Assembly: GCF_000198775.1 (NCBI RefSeq)
Contig: NC_014722.1
Coordinates: 1,194,241 to 1,205,606, forward strand
Source of the DNA: Mycetohabitans rhizoxinica HKI 454
GTDB taxonomy: Bacteria > Pseudomonadota > Gammaproteobacteria > Burkholderiales > Burkholderiaceae
Reading direction: 5' to 3'
DNA length: 11,366 bases
Position 1 is the first letter of the stretch. Each line of letters starts with the position of its first letter. A program made the translations under genes and the position numbers. Below are positions 1,988 through 9,191 of this stretch, piece by piece. The notes below the pieces were generated by a model. That model saw nothing but the letters and a program-made list of their open reading frames with translations. It did not search any database and had not been told where the DNA came from.

Positions 1988-2596
1988 TCAGAATTTGACT
2001 TCGAAAAGCCGTTGATTTGCGAGGTCGAGATCGAACGCATCGGGATCGAAGCTGCCGCCGCACCACTTGAGGAAGTGGTTATGTTCCTCATGCGAGGGAT
2101 CGATGATTGCATCGAGAAAGTCGATGTATCCGGGGGCTCCGCCGACGTCCTCCGGCGGGCATGCGTTGCGTCCGTCTAGGCACAAAGGCGAGCGAAGTTG
2201 CGCATTGGCGGGCAACGCCTTTTCGACCTTGATGCGATGCTGCCAGTTGTCGCCGTAGTCGTAAATGTAGGTGAATGACTTCAGCGCGCCCAACGCTTTG
2301 ACTAGCGTGACCCTGGCTTCATCCAGCATCGGCGGATCGCTCGGGTAGTCAGGGTCCGGTTCGCCGTAGTGGGTATTGCGGAACACGAATTCATGCGCAT
2401 GGCCGCCTTCCCATCCCATCGCTAGTAGCAATATGACGTGAAGCTTTCGTAGCCTAATTGAACCGGGCACCACGATTTGCCGCCAGATTGCCGGTTTGAT
2501 GTGCTGTAGCTCGACACGCAGCACATAGTCGGGGGCTGGCGAGGTGATGGAACGTAAGGCGCTTTTGCGGGATGGGGCCATTGGAGTCGCTCTCAT
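1988..2596 (-). CDS. Plasmid pRiA4b ORF-3 family protein, IS66 passenger
   Basis: A 202-residue protein from ATG 2594-2596. Family signatures in order are KPAIWRQIVVPGSIRLRKLH (about 37-56), MGWEGGHAHEF, the aromatic FTYIYDYGDNWQHRI segment, CPPEDVGGAPGY and the closing FDPDAFDLDLANQRL. Family members are of unresolved biochemical function and are often annotated on plasmids and near transposons. The start overlaps the tnpC stop as ATGA (2593-2596), indicating translational coupling. The stop lies 30 bp from the IS66 terminal repeat, so the gene is inside the element and mobilised with it. An alternative start at 2638 would lie deep inside tnpC and is less likely. The frame is undamaged and every conserved block is present, suggesting maintenance or recent arrival. 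Confidence 0.85.
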   Translation of the reverse strand: MRATPMAPSRKSALRSITSPAPDYVLRVELQHIKPAIWRQIVVPGSIRLRKLHVILLLAMGWEGGHAHEFVFRNTHYGEPDPDYPSDPPMLDEARVTLVKALGALKSFTYIYDYGDNWQHRIKVEKALPANAQLRSPLCLDGRNACPPEDVGGAPGYIDFLDAIIDPSHEEHNHFLKWCGGSFDPDAFDLDLANQRLFEVKF

Positions 2597-4158
2597 GCGG
2601 CTTGCTGCTCGACGTGCTCCGTGGGCACCACGCGCCATGGAAGTAACTCGTCGATGTGGTTGATGGGATGATCGGCGACGCGCTCGAACACCGCGCGCAG
2701 GTAGGCAAATGGCTCGACACCGTTCAGGCGTGCCGTTCCGATCAAGCTATAGATCACCGCCGCACTGTGGCCTCCTGCGTCCGAGCCTGCGAACAGATAG
2801 TTGCGCCTGCCGAGCACGAGTGGCCGGATAGCTCGCTCAGCGGTGTTATTGTCCACTTCGATGCGTCCGTCTTCGCAGTACCGCGTGAGCGCTCGCCAAT
2901 GCGTCAGCGAGTACTTAATCACCTTGGCCAGACCTGACTTCACCGAGATTTGCGACAGTGTATGTTCGAGCCAGGCCTTTAGGCTGAGGAGCAAAAACTC
3001 GCAGCGTTGCTGACGAACCGATAGACGTTCGTCAGGTGTCTGGCCGCGAATTTCGCGCTCAACGGCGTACAAGGCGCCGATTCGGCGCAGCGCTTGCTCG
3101 GCGATCGTAGAATGGTCTAACTCGTACAGATCGTAGAACTTACGACGAGCGTGCGCCCAACACGCAGCCTCGACGATCGTGCCGTCGCGATACAGCGCGT
3201 CATACCCGCTATAGGCATCTGCTTGCAAGATTCCGCTGTAGCCCATCAGATGTTCGCGTGGTCTCTCACCCTTGCGGTCAGCAGAGTACCGATACCAAAC
3301 GGCGGGCGGGGCGCGACTTGCGGCGGAACGCTCGTCCCTCACGTAGGTCCACAATCGTGCTGTGCGCATTTTTCCGCGCCCCGGCTCCAGCACAGGCAAG
3401 GGCGTGTCGTCGGTATGAATCTTTTCGCCTTCGCGCACGTAGCGTCCCAGTGCATCAGCCAACGGCTGTAGCAACTCAGCCGCCTCGCGTACCCACGAGG
3501 CCAGGGTTGCACGATTCAGTTCAATGCCGGCACGTCGATAGATACCCGCTTGCCGATACAACGCAGTGTGATCAGCGTACTTGGCGGTGACCACCTGGGC
3601 GAGTAGTCCAGCACCAGCCATGCCTCGCGTGATCGGCCTTGAAGGAGCAGCCTCCTGAACCACCATCGCACAACGTGAGCAACTTAGCTTTGGCCGTACG
3701 TGCCGCAGGACTTTAAAGTAGTCCGGCACGTAGTCGAGCATTTCGGACACGTCCTCGCCGAGCGCGCGCATCTTTGCGCCGCACTTCGGGCAGCCGCAAT
3801 TCGTCGGCGCATGCACGATCGTTTCGCGCGGCAGATGGGCGGGCAATTGCCTTGGTTTGCGGCGCAGGGAAATAACCTTTGGTGTGCCCGTTGCCTCAAG
3901 GCCTGCGTCTTCGTCAGACAACTTTGCCGCGGCAGGAACGTCAAAGTCTTGTTCGGGTATCGGCAGATCGCAGAGTGCGAGCTGCAGCTGACCCATCAAT
4001 TCCGCTACGCGCTTGGATGAACGCCCGTACTGCCAGCGTTTCAGGCGTGCGATTTCGGACAGCAGTCGCGCAATAGTTTCGTCGCGCGAGGCGATGATGC
4101 GCTTCAGTGCGTCAATGTCATCGGGCAGATGGCCGGCATGCTCGGCAGTGTAAAGCAT
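2593..4158 (-). CDS. tnpC: IS66-family transposase TnpC
   Basis: A 521-residue DDE transposase, full length for the family. Residues 12-45 form a leucine-zipper-like helix (DDIDALKRIIASRDETIARL). A zinc-finger domain follows, with CPKC (123-126) and CSRC (160-163). The catalytic triad is probably D250 or D251 (KIHTDDTPLP), D314 (LQADAYSGYD) and E441 (NNTAERAIRP). The C-terminal IS66 domain ends SLIGTARLNGVEPFAYL and then HIDELLPWRV. I chose ATG 4156-4158 (MLYTAEHAGHL) over the longer frame from 4308 because the extra residues overlap tnpB and look non-coding, while this start is 32 nt after the tnpB stop. TnpC catalyses strand cleavage and transfer, normally together with TnpA and TnpB, both missing or broken here. 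Confidence 0.95.
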   Translation of the reverse strand: MLYTAEHAGHLPDDIDALKRIIASRDETIARLLSEIARLKRWQYGRSSKRVAELMGQLQLALCDLPIPEQDFDVPAAAKLSDEDAGLEATGTPKVISLRRKPRQLPAHLPRETIVHAPTNCGCPKCGAKMRALGEDVSEMLDYVPDYFKVLRHVRPKLSCSRCAMVVQEAAPSRPITRGMAGAGLLAQVVTAKYADHTALYRQAGIYRRAGIELNRATLASWVREAAELLQPLADALGRYVREGEKIHTDDTPLPVLEPGRGKMRTARLWTYVRDERSAASRAPPAVWYRYSADRKGERPREHLMGYSGILQADAYSGYDALYRDGTIVEAACWAHARRKFYDLYELDHSTIAEQALRRIGALYAVEREIRGQTPDERLSVRQQRCEFLLLSLKAWLEHTLSQISVKSGLAKVIKYSLTHWRALTRYCEDGRIEVDNNTAERAIRPLVLGRRNYLFAGSDAGGHSAAVIYSLIGTARLNGVEPFAYLRAVFERVADHPINHIDELLPWRVVPTEHVEQQAA

Positions 4159-4190
4159 GCTCGTGTACCTGTGAGTGCCGGAGCACCGCC

Positions 4191-4388
4191 TCATGCGGCG
4201 CGTGTGGGCTGCCACGTTCGTTCGGGATGTCGCCAATCGATGCCCTCCAGAAGCATGGAGAGTTGGGCTGGTGAGAGGTGGACGCTGCCCGAACTCGCTT
4301 GAGGCCATACAAAGCGTCCTTGCTCCAGACGCTTCGCATACAGGTTCATGCCGTCACCGCTCCACCATAGGACTTTGATAAGGTCACC
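4191..4388 (-). pseudogene. tnpB: IS66 TnpB accessory protein, C-terminal part
   Basis: The minus-strand frame encodes 65 residues starting at the conserved GDLIKVLWW and continuing YAKRLEQGRFVWPQ, LSPAQLSMLLEGIDW and RHPERTWQP, the standard C-terminal half of IS66 TnpB. Upstream of GDL the reading (MLNVVWL) no longer matches TnpB and belongs to the inserted recombinase unit. The missing upstream residues HVFVFRARRG are encoded at 7013-7042. TnpB is an accessory protein needed for efficient IS66 transposition; this copy is inactivated. Confidence 0.9.
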
Positions 4389-4400
4389 GAGCCACACGAC
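4382..4400. other. Left attachment junction (attL-like)
   Basis: TnpB coding sequence GGTCACC meets element sequence GAGCCACACGACATTC. The crossover lies within CCG at 4387-4389. CACACGAC (4393-4400) is repeated near the right end. Boundaries follow from reconstruction of the tnpB frame, not from a known site consensus. Confidence 0.6.
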
Positions 4401-4414
4401 ATTCAACATACCGT

Positions 4415-4894
4415 TTGCAAGTGGCGATCATCGCGTATCCGTGGCATCCAGCGCACGGTCAGCAATTCCGAGTAGTACGGCGTAGCGGGCGCCGAGGAAA
4501 CCAGCTAGTTCATCTTGATGTGCCGGGCGGCCTCTCACGCGAACTACCCGTGTGGATGCTAGATGCGTCAATATGCTCGACGATGTCCCTTGGCTCACCC
4601 CAATTGAGCCTGTCAGCTCTGAACGAACTGCGCGCCAATCTGCACACCCGAGCACTGCAGCCGACTATGGGTGGATCATCGAAACTCTTCAGCACGGAGG
4701 GCAATTTCTATGACGCGGGTAAACAGCACAGAGCAAGGCATACAACTGCCTTTGATACTGGAGAGCGATCCAGCATGGAACAAAAGCCTCGTGGGCAATC
4801 GACGCGACGAGTTGATAGTGGCGCTGGCAGATCTACTACTGGAAGCACTGGGCAAAGTGCAGAGACAGGCACGCGATCAAGGAGATCTCAATGA
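4415..4894 (+). CDS. DUF5372-like short protein upstream of recombinase
   Basis: The frame opens after a TAA at 4379-4381; candidate starts are TTG 4415 and GTG 4421. The first roughly 80 residues read VAIIAYPWHPAHGQQFRVV, then LSRELPVWMLDASICSTM and SLSALNELRANL. The YPWHPxxGQxFxV opening resembles DUF5372-type proteins found just ahead of recombinases and transposases; its role is unknown. Past about residue 98 the frame overlaps the next gene, and the residues there are low-complexity (Arg, Ser, Thr, Gly) and look like read-through, so the original stop may have been lost. The protein would be expected to act with the recombinase encoded downstream, but that is inference from gene order. 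Confidence 0.55.
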   Translation: MQVAIIAYPWHPAHGQQFRVVRRSGRRGNQLVHLDVPGGLSRELPVWMLDASICSTMSLGSPQLSLSALNELRANLHTRALQPTMGGSSKLFSTEGNFYDAGKQHRARHTTAFDTGERSSMEQKPRGQSTRRVDSGAGRSTTGSTGQSAETGTRSRRSQ

Positions 4895-4913
4895 GCCAGA
4901 AGATCATGTCTGA
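4710..4913 (+). CDS. Small conserved protein preceding the serine recombinase
   Basis: A 67-residue protein from ATG 4710, preceded by GGAGG (4696-4700) at 9 nt spacing, a better start than 4671. It reads MTRVNSTEQGIQLPLILESD, then DELIVALADLLLEALGKVQR and ends LNEPEDHV: a short LPL strand-like motif followed by an amphipathic helix. I recall similar small frames directly upstream of this recombinase subfamily, but no function is established. Its last 23 nt overlap the recombinase start at 4891, which suggests translational coupling and a possible partner or directionality role. Confidence 0.7.
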   Translation: MTRVNSTEQGIQLPLILESDPAWNKSLVGNRRDELIVALADLLLEALGKVQRQARDQGDLNEPEDHV

Positions 4914-6985
4914 CCACCTTGGCCGCGGCGCCATCGTATACGTGCGCCAGTCGACCCTAAGTCAGGTTGCCGAACATAAGGAGAGCCAGCGTCGCCAATA
5001 TGCACTCGCTGATTTTGCACGTGGGTTGGGTTTTGCATCGGTCTTGACTATCGACGATGATCTCGGCCGTTCCGGTTCGGGGGCTGTCGATCGGCCCGGC
5101 TTCCAGAAACTGGTGGCTGCGGTGTGTGCAGGATCTGTCGGTGCGGTGTTCTGTCTCGAAGCATCCAGGCTTGCACGAAACGGTAGAGATTGGCACCACC
5201 TGGTTGATTTATGTGCGCTCGTTGGCACACTCGTTATTGATCACGATGGCGTCTATGATCCGCGACTCATCAACGACCGGCTCCTGCTCGGTTTGAAGGG
5301 CACAATGTCGGAATACGAGTTGAGCCTGCTACGGCAACGCGGACTGGCCGCGCGCGATTCGAAGGCTAGTCGCGGCGAATTGCGTTTCGCCTTGCCACCG
5401 GGCTATTGCTGGAACGAACTGGGGAAGATAGAGATGGACCCGGGCGAGCGGGTAAGTGGCGCGATCAGTCTCGTGTTTGCCAAGTTCAGACAGCTCGGTA
5501 GTGCTCGCCAAGTCTTGCTGTGGGCCATACAATCGCAGACAAGTTTCCCCGTCATGCGTAACGGTGTTGCGGGTGTGCGGATCGACTGGAAGCTGCCGGC
5601 ATACCACACTGTTATCCAGATATTGCAGCATCCGATGTACGCCGGCGCGTATGTGTTTGGCCGCAAAGCGCAACGTACATTGGTTGTTGACGGGCATGTC
5701 CGGAAGACGTCAGGTCATTCGAAGGCCATGAAGGACTGGAACGTTCTACTACGGAACAACCATCCCGGCTATATAACGTGGGACCAGTTCGAAGAACATC
5801 AACGCATGATCTGCGAGAATGCACACATGAAGAAACGGGCATCCCGTAAATCCGCCAGAGGTGGGCGAGCGTTGCTGACCGGCCTGGTACGTTGTGGGCG
5901 CTGCGCATCGAATGATGCGCGTGACGTATGGCATGCGGGCCGGCCACGCTCATCGTTACCATTGCCGGGGAGATCAGGAGCGTGCCGCAAACTGGGTTTG
6001 CATCGGGATTGGCGGCGTACGTATCGATCAGGCTGTCGCAGCCTTGATTCTGGAAGCCGTTTCCCCTCATGCCGTGGAGGCTGCAATACTCGCCGCGCAT
6101 CATGCTAACGCTGCTGGGGACGATGTAAAGCGTGCGCTGCAACTCGAACTCGAAGATGCGCACTACGAGGTCTCACTGGCTGCGCGCCGGTACGAGGCGG
6201 TAGATCCTACAAAAAGGCTCGTCGCTCGTGAACTCGAAGCGCGGTGGAACGCAGCATTGGAGCGGGTAGCGCAGCTCGAAGAGCGGCTCTCACAGTTTGA
6301 CGCCGAAGCGGCATCGCGTCCAAGGATCGACGAAGCCGGACTCATGGCGCTCGCTGCCGATTTGCAGTTAGCGTGGAATGCACCCGATACGGACGCTCGT
6401 ACCAAACAACGCTTGACTCGCATCCTCATTCAAGAGGTGGTAATCGATCTTGATGACGACGCAAACGAAGCCGTGGTCACAGTTCACTGGACCGGAGGTC
6501 GACATACCGAGGCCCGCGTGCCCCGCACGAGCGTGGGGCGCTACCCCAGTGACCGTTACCCGAGCCCCGTAGAGGTCTTGCGCAAGCTCGGCGGCTATTG
6601 GACAGATCTCGATCTAGCGGTCACCATGAATCGTATGAGATGTAAGACAGCGCACGGGCAGTCATGGACCGTTGTGCGCGTCGCCGAACTACGCAAGCGT
6701 CTGGGGATTGAGCCTTTCGATCCAACCGCTCCGCACATCGAAACAATCAGCGTAGAAGAAGCCTCGCGGCGATTGAATATCTACACGAGCTCGGTTCATC
6801 GACTGATTCGCGAAGGCGTTCTGCCTACAACTCAGCTCATGCCTTCCGCACCATGGCAGATTCCGGTTGCCGCCCTCGACTCTGAGGCCGTCAGGCAAGG
6901 CGTGATCGCTATCAAGGAACGGCGGCCACCTCATTTCAAGACCCGACAGGACGCCGAGAAGTCGCTCAAGCTGCCTGGATTTTAA
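4891..6985 (+). pseudogene. Large serine recombinase with one frameshift
   Basis: The first 340 codons contain a resolvase-type catalytic domain: YVRQST with probable nucleophile Ser21, DDDLGRSGSG, EASRLARNGRDW with Arg93 and Arg96, and GTMSEYELSLLRQRG. The recombinase DNA-binding domain follows (about 165-290), then the zinc-ribbon start LVRCGRC. Immediately afterwards the frame changes: RCGRC ends at 5904, while MMRVTYGMRAGHAHRYHCRG resumes at 5912 in the next frame. That frame runs through a coiled coil and a C-terminal region to TAA 6983-6985. Dropping one base near 5905-5911 gives a 697-residue protein, typical of this subfamily. The C-terminal ISVEEASRRLNIYTSSVHRL is a probable helix-turn-helix. 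The frameshift would remove the second zinc-ribbon half and all downstream DNA-binding parts. A sequencing error cannot be excluded. Confidence 0.85.
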
Positions 6986-7003
6986 CCAGAGGATGCACTA
7001 TGT

Positions 7004-7018
7004 CACACGACTCCCGCG
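7004..7018. other. Right attachment junction (attR-like)
   Basis: Element sequence CACACGACTC ends at the shared CCG (7014-7016), after which the minus strand reads TnpB residues upwards from RRG. The CACACGAC copy at 7004-7011 is a direct repeat of that at 4393-4400. In a closed circle the two copies would lie 16 bp apart, start to start, flanking the core. Confidence 0.6.
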
Positions 7019-7042
7019 GCGTGCGCGAAACACGAACACATG
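7013..7042 (-). pseudogene. tnpB: IS66 TnpB, internal fragment upstream of the insertion
   Basis: The minus strand codes HVFVFRARRG, the segment that directly precedes GDLIKVLWW in IS66 TnpB proteins. It ends where the recombinase unit begins (CCC at 7013-7015 codes the shared Gly) and is cut on the other side by the IS3-family left end at 7045. Only ten codons remain, but the fit with the downstream half at 4191-4388 is exact and in frame. Confidence 0.8.
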
Positions 7043-7044
7043 CA

Positions 7045-7230
7045 TGAACCGACCCCGGAAAGCTGGACGCTAACCTCTCGGGGGGTTATGGGCAGGTACA
7101 CCGAGCAGCAGAAGCTGCGAGTAGTTGAGGATTATTTTTCGTGTCAGTCGGGCCTGAAGACTGTCGCCAAGCGGCATGATGTCGATATTTCTGCGGTGCG
7201 CAGCTGGGTGGCGGCATATCGCGAACATGG
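7045..7230 (+). mobile_element. IS3-family left end with truncated orfA
   Basis: The left terminus begins TGAACCGACCCCGGAAAG, the TG-starting form usual for IS3-family ends, 43 bp ahead of the orfA start. The element interrupts tnpB of the IS66 copy. Homology is lost at about 7227, after which the vapBC control region begins; orfB and the right end are absent. Confidence 0.65.
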
Positions 7231-7243
7231 GGACCCGTCCTGA
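7088..7243 (+). pseudogene. IS3-family OrfA, N-terminal fragment
   Basis: From ATG 7088 the frame reads MGRYTEQQKLRVVEDYFSCQ, then LKTVAKRHDVDISAVRSWVA and AYREHG, the helix-turn-helix DNA-binding region of IS3/IS150-type OrfA. The last residues (DPS, stop 7241-7243) come from unrelated sequence past the truncation. OrfA normally supplies end binding and is joined to OrfB by frameshifting; neither the leucine zipper nor OrfB survives here. Confidence 0.75.
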
Positions 7244-7259
7244 TTCCTGGGCTCCGAGT

Positions 7260-7288
7260 TTGACAGAGATGGACCTCCATCATATTAT
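7260..7288 (+). promoter_or_regulatory. vapBC promoter
   Basis: TTGACA (7260-7265) and TATTAT (7283-7288) are separated by 17 bp, close to the sigma-70 consensus. Transcription would start near 7294-7296, inside the palindrome that follows, 30 nt or less ahead of the vapB start. Confidence 0.65.
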
Positions 7289-7302
7289 GACCATATGGTC
7301 AT
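7287..7302. promoter_or_regulatory. Perfect palindrome, likely VapB/VapBC operator
   Basis: ATGACCATATGGTCAT is an exact 16-bp palindrome. It overlaps the end of the -10 hexamer and the expected start of transcription and precedes vapB. Toxin-antitoxin antitoxins of this type bind palindromes at this position to autorepress, so operator function is a strong inference. Confidence 0.7.
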
Positions 7303-7322
7303 TTTTAATGGTTGAGATCCTC

Positions 7323-7559
7323 GTGAAAACCTTTACTGTCGTTGAAGCCAAGTCTCATTTCTCAGCCCTGTTGGTTGAGATAGAGGCCGGCGAGGAAATT
7401 GCTATCACCCGCCATGGGAAAATTGTGGCGCGGATGGTCCCCAATCACCCAAGCGTCGCGGCCGACGCTTTCCGTGACTTCTGGTCAAGCCAGGATGGTA
7501 TTGATCTGCAAGCTCCGGAGGATAGCCCAGCCGAGGCCGTAGCCTCGATGGACAATTAG
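7323..7559 (+). CDS. vapB: VapB antitoxin, Phd/YefM type
   Basis: From GTG 7323 the product is 78 residues, opening MKTFTVVEAKSHFSALLVEI (GTG read as Met) and then EAGEEIAITRHGKIVARMVP, the N-terminal Phd/YefM DNA-binding fold. The acidic tail (DGIDLQAPEDSPAEAVASMD) would be the toxin-neutralising segment. ATG 7308, in frame 15 nt earlier, is an alternative, but family proteins begin at the KTFTV position. No strong ribosome binding site is visible ahead of either start. The stop is 3 nt before vapC, so the two are cotranscribed. The antitoxin binds VapC and, with it, the operator at 7287-7302. Confidence 0.9.
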   Translation: MKTFTVVEAKSHFSALLVEIEAGEEIAITRHGKIVARMVPNHPSVAADAFRDFWSSQDGIDLQAPEDSPAEAVASMDN

Positions 7560-7562
7560 TCC

Positions 7563-7976
7563 ATGGCCGCGCTCTACCTGCTGGATATCAACATTTTGAT
7601 TGCCGCTTTGAAAGGGCATCCAGACATACAGCAGCGGCTAGAAACTCTGCCGCTCAGTAGCATGCGCCTATCGGTGATTGTGCTTGGAGAGTTGGAATTT
7701 GGCGCGGAGAAAAGCGCTCATAGTGAGCGCAACCGCGCCCGTCTCGCCACTCTGGCGCAACGGCTGCCCCTCGTTGGCTTCGATGCTGAGACCACCCGCT
7801 ACTATGCGCGGGTGAGGGCCTTTCTAGAGCGGCAAGGAACTCCAATCGGGGCCAATGACACATGGATCGCCGCCCAGGCGCTAGCCATCAAAGCCACACT
7901 CGTAACGGATAACGAACGCGAGTTTTCCCGCGTGCCGGATCTGTCACTAGAAAACTGGCTGGCAAGAGGGCAATGA
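7563..7976 (+). CDS. vapC: VapC toxin, PIN-domain ribonuclease
   Basis: A 137-residue PIN-domain protein. The metal-binding acidic residues are all visible: Asp8 in LLDINILIAALKG, Glu43 in VLGELEFGAEKS, Asp99 in GANDTWIAAQA and Asp116 in LVTDNEREFSRV. Length and motif spacing are those of an intact VapC, a Mg-dependent endoribonuclease that often cleaves initiator tRNA or rRNA; the target here is unknown. It directly follows vapB, giving a complete toxin-antitoxin operon, the only undamaged two-gene system in this part of the window. Downstream, 7977-8061 holds no gene. Confidence 0.92.
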   Translation: MAALYLLDINILIAALKGHPDIQQRLETLPLSSMRLSVIVLGELEFGAEKSAHSERNRARLATLAQRLPLVGFDAETTRYYARVRAFLERQGTPIGANDTWIAAQALAIKATLVTDNEREFSRVPDLSLENWLARGQ

Positions 7977-8444: not shown

Positions 8445-9191
8445 TCAATGCGAAATGAGTTTCTCCTTGGCAAGATCCAGTGAATCGAGGAAGGTGCGTA
8501 TGGGTGTCTTGCCGTAACACCACCGCCCTTGATGTTCCCGTTTATTGTTGTACTGATCGAGCCACGCATCAAGGTCCGTCTGCAGAACGTGGATCGATTT
8601 GTAGATCTTTTTGCGGAACGTGACCCGATAGAACTCGTTGAGCATGGTCTTGTGCAGCCGCTCGACGATTCCGTTGGTCTGCGGCGACTTGGCCTTTGTG
8701 CGGGTATGGTCGATATCCTCTACGGCCAAATACAGCTCGTATTCGTGATGTTCGGGGTTGCCGCAGTATTGCGTGCCGCGATCAGTCAGTACGCGCAACA
8801 GCGGGATACCGAAGCTGTCAAAGAATGGAACGACGCGATCATTGAGCAGGTCGGCCGCGGGCAAAGACGTTTTGCGCTCGTAAAGCTTGGCGAACGCCAC
8901 CTTCGAGTAGGTATCGACGAAGGTCTGTTGATAAATGCGACCTACGCCCTTAAGACTGCCGACATAGAACGTGTTGTCCTGCGCGCCACAGTAGCCGGGA
9001 CATTCGGACTCGAATTCGCCGTGTGCTTTCTTTTTGCGCTTGGCGCGTTCCAGCGCAACGAGCTGGGCCTCGGTCAGCACCAGCCCTTGCTGGGCGGATT
9101 TGGCTTCCAGGGCCTTCAGGCGCTTGGGCATGATCTTCAAATCGTGGCGCAGCCAGATGCTACGGACACCCTGTGGCGAAACGCACAGGCC
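8445..9191 (-). pseudogene. IS481-family transposase lacking its N-terminus
   Basis: The open frame with ATG at 9140 covers 231 residues, but homologous coding extends to about 9191 ([20 protein letters not shown]). It shows [20 protein letters not shown], the integrase core with [14 protein letters not shown] (first Asp), [13 protein letters not shown] (second Asp) and [15 protein letters not shown] (catalytic Glu), and ends [20 protein letters not shown]. The N-terminal helix-turn-helix region is missing, replaced at about 9191 by sequence coding on the other strand for an IS110-type fragment. The catalytic domain is intact, but DNA-binding parts are gone, so the protein is not expected to transpose. 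The element end beyond 8445 was not identified; 8273-8444 contains no recognised gene. Confidence 0.85.

Follow-up and report, generated by a model that had tools for sequence, protein, structure and literature searches.

The window analysed here, 11,366 nucleotides of Mycetohabitans rhizoxinica HKI 454 (NC_014722.1, positions 1,194,241 to 1,205,606), lies on contig C2 (2.755 Mb) of a 3.75-Mb genome in three contigs, and holds a 2.6-kb serine recombinase element lodged in the tnpB gene of an IS66-type insertion sequence (IS). Read along the minus strand, tnpC and the C-terminal part of tnpB are followed by the foreign unit and then by about ten further tnpB codons. As a first-pass annotation of this DNA had described, TnpB text flanks the unit on both sides, with GDLIKVLWW running downward from 4388 and HVFVFRARRG at 7013-7042. 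The features of the locus are as follows.

2593..4308, minus: host IS66 tnpC, DDE transposase (PF03050, E 7e-103)
4191..4388, minus: host IS66 tnpB, C-terminal part (PF05717, TnpB_IS66, profile positions 44-100 of 101, E 1e-19)
4387..4388, no strand: left core dinucleotide CC (attL), from the equivalent position in relatives L102-L104, which have A instead of G as the following base
4389..7015, no strand: putative mobile unit of 2,627 bp, one core copy included, from the joint against an uninterrupted tnpB of the same genome and the core seen in relatives
4389..4412, plus: left element end, GAGCCACACGACATTCAACATACC, kept among the nearest relatives
4415..4894, plus: element gene 1, DUF5372-like protein (PF17342, E 0.012, below cut-off)
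4710..4913, plus: element gene 2, a 67-residue protein of no family that overlaps the recombinase start; a similar small open reading frame (ORF) lies at the same place in L033, L035, L097 and L100
4891..6108, plus: recombinase piece 1, Resolvase and Recombinase domains (PF00239, E 3e-21; PF07508, E 1e-9)
5894..6985, plus: recombinase piece 2, in another frame, with a C-terminal helix-turn-helix (HTH_17, E 4e-4, below cut-off), equivalent to residues 335-697 of a 697-residue relative
6994..7013, plus: right element end, TGCACTATGTCACACGACTC, kept among the nearest relatives
7014..7015, no strand: right core dinucleotide CC (attR); its distance to the A of the ATG in TGCACTATGTCAC is 14 nt
7014..7043, minus: N-terminal-side remnant of host tnpB, about ten codons, truncated after; 100% identical over 30 bp to the intact tnpB L002, whose match ends beyond

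An element within IS66 tnpB and its empty site

An uninterrupted tnpB (L002) is present in the same genome at C2:1186990, 11.6 kb upstream, and aligns to window positions 4001-4389 (93.6%, 389 bp) and 7014-7043 (100%, 30 bp), the two matches meeting exactly at the predicted joint. The empty site is thus observed, beyond prediction, and the insert measures 2,627 bp. The first-pass annotation had bounded a 2.6-kb unit to within 3 bp by a shared CCG triplet, had held that its removal rebuilds an uninterrupted conserved TnpB segment, and had proposed a search for uninterrupted relatives, of which L002 is one. The length and the rejoined frame stand, and the joint matches L002; the shared core is CC rather than CCG, because L102-L104 carry A after CC, and only about ten codons remain on the right, where similarity to intact tnpB stops at 7043 and the host IS66 is truncated. 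An 8-bp sequence, CACACGAC, is directly repeated just inside both element ends (4393-4400 and 7004-7011); it was rejected as the crossover since it would not restore the tnpB frame and is inexact in L102-L104. A third IS66 tnpB of this genome (L186, C2:1833070) was considered as an excision scar and set aside, its frameshift lying several codons past the target codon.

The element carries three overlapping genes on the plus strand. The marginal DUF5372 match of the first is joined by a clear one (E 3e-28) upstream of the recombinase in the distant relative L078, and our search of the open-licence literature found no paper on this family; the 67-residue protein had no Pfam match. No second copy of the element was found in the genome. 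In other clades (L076, L078, L091) the part upstream is longer, extending to around -800 or -1270 relative to the start of the recombinase, and includes DUF5372 in L078 and a helix-turn-helix (HTH) protein in L091.

The annotation's identification of a serine recombinase is borne out by the domains, with the qualification that the reading frame in the window is broken near 5894-5904: the two pieces correspond, in different frames, to residues 1-338 and 335-697 of a 697-residue relative, and the protein is 696-697 residues long in L033, L035, L093 and L097. The catalytic-type domain is N-terminal (residues 14-163, PF00239), and the serine of YVRQS, which we take to be the catalytic one, is invariant in 12 of 12 aligned sequences. 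The intact relative L097 has a zinc ribbon (PF13408) and a C-terminal HTH match below the cut-off; no zinc ribbon match was obtained in the window recombinase, whose frame is lost at about that place. Among the nearest solved structures are YokA and TnpX. The best NCBIfam model is XisF (E 1e-18 to 1e-19), at 67-70 bits against a cut-off of 375, and Ccr models match weakly. With Resolvase, Recombinase and zinc ribbon domains, a 2-bp core and an orientation set by that core, the element as read from these comparisons fits the large serine recombinase class, and the window copy, with a frameshifted recombinase and a truncated host IS, is probably an inactive, decayed member.

Other classes fitted less well. 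A Tn3-type transposon was rejected, no DDE transposase being found among the five ORFs scanned inside 4389-7015; an IS607-type serine transposon was rejected on the position of the catalytic domain, which is N-terminal rather than placed after a DNA-binding domain; and a prophage was rejected after a search of 50,697 phage records gave no match at E 1e-20. The score against XisF lies far under the equivalog cut-off, which leaves the recombinase outside the fdxN/XisF group.

To the right of the element, an ORF fragment with an HTH_Tnp_1 domain (7040-7243, plus strand) from another IS starts approximately where host tnpB is cut off, and a fragment of an rve integrase core (8445-9140, minus strand) also derives from another IS. 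On visual inspection, two neighbouring ORFs at 7176-7976 (plus strand) resemble a pair of Phd-type antitoxin and PIN-domain toxin.

Target codon, core and orientation

Relatives were sought with the first 333 recombinase residues. Matches were found in 42 of 398 genomes of the host's taxonomic family at E 1e-60, in 455 plasmid records at E 1e-40 and, among 333 candidate stretches from species genomes, in 301; we drew on 80 listed relatives of these 301, on 60 of about 86 other places in the family genomes, and on eight plasmid loci chosen among the closest of the 455 records. The 149 loci examined became 141 on removal of eight duplicates of named records (L033-L040). Sixty-nine of them, with at least 63.5% recombinase identity, were treated as close relatives; this threshold was set with knowledge of the point at which tnpB flanks cease, and falls inside a gap between 61.6% and 64.1%. 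The loci are partly non-independent, the 69 close ones reducing to 63 distinct target flank pairs, and L078, L080 and L081 being a single insertion.

Among the close relatives, tnpB was recognised on both sides at 35 loci (on the same strand at 34, on opposite strands at L130), on one side at 28 and on neither at six. Two of these last, L151 and L154, show stretches of N to one side; to the other, tnpB can be read by eye. One-sided cases were judged by the position of the break, with L143 and L152 labelled by hand from the junction text. On this basis the element sits in IS66 tnpB at the same codon at 62 of 69 loci, the other seven having no assigned target, a positive answer to the check proposed in the annotation, whether flanks repeatedly read TnpB at the RRG/DLI codons. 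The same searches placed none of the 72 distant family members at that codon (16 of them have no assigned target), and the distant locus L089 breaks tnpB at another position. In a tree of 133 sequences, a quick build with long branches flagged, a single clade of 62 rows (SH-aLRT 99) took in all 58 tnpB rows, and its remaining four rows have no assigned target.

Core dinucleotides were read separately at each end, by their distance from the conserved end sequence. Both ends could be read at 45 loci, and the two dinucleotides agree at 34 of them; among the 30 of these loci that also have same-strand tnpB on both sides they agree at 26, of which 22 are distinct targets. At all 22 the rejoined target reads TnpB across the joint and the core corresponds to positions 1 and 2 of codon x (GGN, GCN, CGN or AAA); at 16 of them the protein reads R, K or Q, then R-x-D. 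Targeting of the RRGDLI codons, as the first-pass annotation had put it, therefore holds for the codon, while RR-x-D is a consensus only. At L099 there is a one-base length difference to its twin, L098, at a point further upstream.

With serine integrases, orientation is expected to follow the core. Sorted by core, the 26 loci with agreeing ends comprise GG in the sense orientation (10), CC antisense (6) and AA sense (1), and the palindromic cores occur both ways, CG with two sense and three antisense and GC with two of each. The GG/CC rule partly follows from the codon being GGN, so it is the palindromic cores that carry weight. Orientation in this set follows the core, a palindromic core permitting the element to lie either way round. 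Taken together, the precise joint, the core, the orientation rule and the specificity can be read directly from the aligned sequences, and the core on the element reads as the core in the target.

Two loci in Candidatus Paraburkholderia kirkii (L152 and L153) hold 100% identical copies with mismatched flanks. To the right of L153 the sequence resembles a different serine recombinase gene, as though the two copies had undergone recombination with each other.

Probable movement of the element and its carrier

Several pairs of loci bear on how the element moves. In Mesorhizobium huakuii 583, plasmid p_1 has a loaded copy (L100) and p_3 an empty copy (L182) of the same IS66, 99.5-99.8% identical to each other and differing by 2,611 bp, and empty copies of loaded IS66s are found at 99.5-99.9% identity. 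In Mesorhizobium sp. AR07 (L140, L157) the same lineage is reversed at the identical base pair, and the elements of L097 and L149 match at 99.7% over 2,619 bp but occupy two different IS66s and point in opposite directions. On soybean Bradyrhizobium plasmids, L094 and L125 share the same loaded IS66 of 5.1 kb (99.5% identical) with GTAAGCGGCAA ends, each surrounded by a different exact 8-bp duplication; the simplest reading is that the loaded IS66 was transposed as a whole. A search with the Bradyrhizobium loaded IS matched 189 records, and among the 60 listed at least two hold the loaded IS, at least nine (H204-H212) hold little beyond the element at 97.3-99.4% identity, and in H214 and H215 an IS66 of 93% identity lacks the element (two pieces, 2.5 kb).

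We conclude that this is very probably a small element of the large serine recombinase class that uses a conserved coding site of IS66 tnpB (RR-x-D) as its attB, and that it would leave as a circle and spread both from IS66 to IS66 and with its transposed carrier, the window copy being a decayed example. Integration is precise: some 2.6 kb is gained, and nothing but the 2-bp core is duplicated. The element would leave as a circle with attP rejoined through the core, and the recombinase would then pair this attP with the attB of a new tnpB; either small protein may serve as the directionality factor. Spread could thus take two routes, one from IS66 to IS66 by the element's own recombinase and one in which the loaded IS66 is transposed to new places, perhaps with TnpB supplied in trans from intact copies. 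By breaking the gene, the element may also act as a brake on IS66.

Several observations weigh against this account. The cores differ at four of the 30 two-sided loci (L106, L132, L133 and L136) and at 11 of 45 overall; at L106 the script had picked the wrong ATG, and the core read by eye is still discordant. Six of the 22 distinct sites deviate from the RR-x-D consensus. Units in unrelated flanks, which the first-pass annotation had named as evidence against a site-specific element, are few: four close relatives (L114, L123, L153 and L177) have no readable tnpB on either side, and two of these, L114 and L123, have matching cores and look like genuine insertions elsewhere. L094 and L125 could also have arisen by separate insertion events in one and the same IS66. 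Finally, the annotation had suggested looking for circular junctions, and a zero-mismatch pattern search for rejoined attP (circular or tandem) of the window's own lineage found none in the 398 host-family genomes.

The element might instead be a programmed interrupter like the fdxN element, silencing IS66 and leaving precisely so as to restore tnpB, to the benefit of host and element alike. The joints are indeed precise and XisF is the top NCBIfam match, below its cut-off as noted; yet that match covers the shared catalytic part of the protein, and the spread over many hosts and IS66s looks parasitic, so that we regard this possibility as unlikely. Loose specificity, with landings in tnpB reflecting only the abundance of IS66, would accommodate L114, L123 and the six off-consensus sites, and multi-targeting large serine recombinases are known (accessible text of PMC10083194). 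The recurrence of one codon across the close relatives is at odds with it, as is the absence of the distant clades from that codon even though IS66 is also the target, through tnpC, of one such clade, and we consider loose specificity quite unlikely. That the recombinase genes are passengers of one IS66 lineage whose split tnpB is the normal build of the IS, a possibility the annotation had itself raised, is highly unlikely: loaded copies do have proper ends and 8-bp duplications, but near-identical empty copies of the same IS66 exist within one strain, as does the 93%-identical empty form in Bradyrhizobium, and 99.7% identical elements occupy different IS66s in opposite orientations, among 22 distinct two-sided target sites.

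A wider family and its place among known systems

The IS66-tnpB group is, on the recombinase tree and flank assignments, one clade of a wider family, the other clades of which mostly use recurring sites in other transposition genes. At 73 of the 141 loci, complementary fragments of one protein (by profile coordinates) flank the recombinase on both sides: TnpB at 35 (34 close relatives and L089), IstB at 14, group II intron reverse transcriptase (RT) at 14, TnpC at five, IstA at four and IS4 at one. The breaks fall near profile position 103-110 in 13 of 14 IstB cases (in L171 the left piece starts later), at 217-220 in seven RT cases and 149-155 in the other seven, at 426-433 in three of four TnpC cases with L085 left aside, and at 207-211 in three of four IstA cases, the fourth (L169) breaking near 109. 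L085 is nested, the recombinase element lying in a group II intron RT and the intron itself in an IS66 tnpC. Two-sided splits were recovered with Pfam for IstB, RVT_1 and an IS1380-type protein at L041, L043, L160, L161, L063, L064, L068 and L166, some other loci giving no Pfam match or a one-sided one, and Rfam detected group II intron RNA in nine of 13 loci scanned. In the tree each RT site forms one clade (support 100), TnpC forms one clade together with one row without an assigned target, and IstB appears in two places. One genome (G325) holds five copies of about 2.7 kb (L063-L067), 99.9-100% identical where aligned (L065 in part), in two kinds of intron RT.

Transposition genes are most, not all, of the targets: L061 interrupts the gene for an error-prone DNA polymerase, a non-mobile target, L167 adjoins an outer-membrane-type gene, and 23 of 141 loci have no assigned target. 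We nonetheless lean towards the view that these recombinases make up a widespread family of tiny elements specialised on mobile elements, in which the landing site of each clade would be a critical, and hence DNA-conserved, coding motif of a transposition gene (TnpB RR-x-D, TnpC, the IstB nucleotide-binding loop, IstA and two RT sites), so that the element would hitchhike on its carrier and brake it.

Elements of the large serine recombinase type with an attB in conserved coding sequence are a known kind. Many clusters of serine recombinases keyed to a single conserved gene site were described by Durrant et al. (2022; PMC10083194), and our element resembles them in this; the targets named in the accessible part of that paper are magnesium chelatase, prolyl isomerase and competence genes, where ours are transposition genes. 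Transposition genes as a target class, specialisation clade by clade and hitchhiking on a carrier were not found in the open-licence literature, including the accessible parts of PMC10083194 and PMC3281130.

We thus see a serine recombinase lineage at home in a mobile and repeated gene whose loss is presumably harmless, so that its target sites are numerous and travel between species. This would explain why the lineage occurs in Pseudomonadota as well as in metagenome-assembled genomes assigned to Verrucomicrobiota, Acidobacteriota and Actinomycetota (labels that can be wrong). The clades also offer a natural series of related recombinases with different, tightly defined attB sites, useful for learning how these proteins read DNA. 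A testable question also follows: whether IS66, IS21 and group II introns are held in check by elements of this sort.

Among individual systems, the element is like those of TnpX (Tn4451), YokA (SPbeta) and CcrABC (SCC) in its Resolvase, Recombinase and zinc ribbon domains, its 2-bp core and the lack of target duplication. Tn4451, SPbeta and SCC target a host gene or a loose site; unlike them, our element has three small genes with no cargo recognised, and its target is a transposition gene. The fdxN element, which interrupts a host gene and leaves in development, shares with it the precise interruption of a gene and XisF as the top, if below-cut-off, model. The phiRv1 prophage has a serine integrase with REP13E12 repeats, possibly mobile, as attB (neither term was met in our literature search); it uses one repeat family, and our element, in contrast, is not a prophage. 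The group II intron RmInt1, which has its home in ISRm2011-2, is likewise a mobile element housed in an IS in rhizobia, and differs in moving by RNA-based retrohoming rather than by a recombinase. IS4321 and IS5075 are mobile elements with another type of transposase, specific for Tn21-type terminal repeats; our element resembles them in its specificity for another mobile element, and differs from them in using a coding site, not a terminal repeat.

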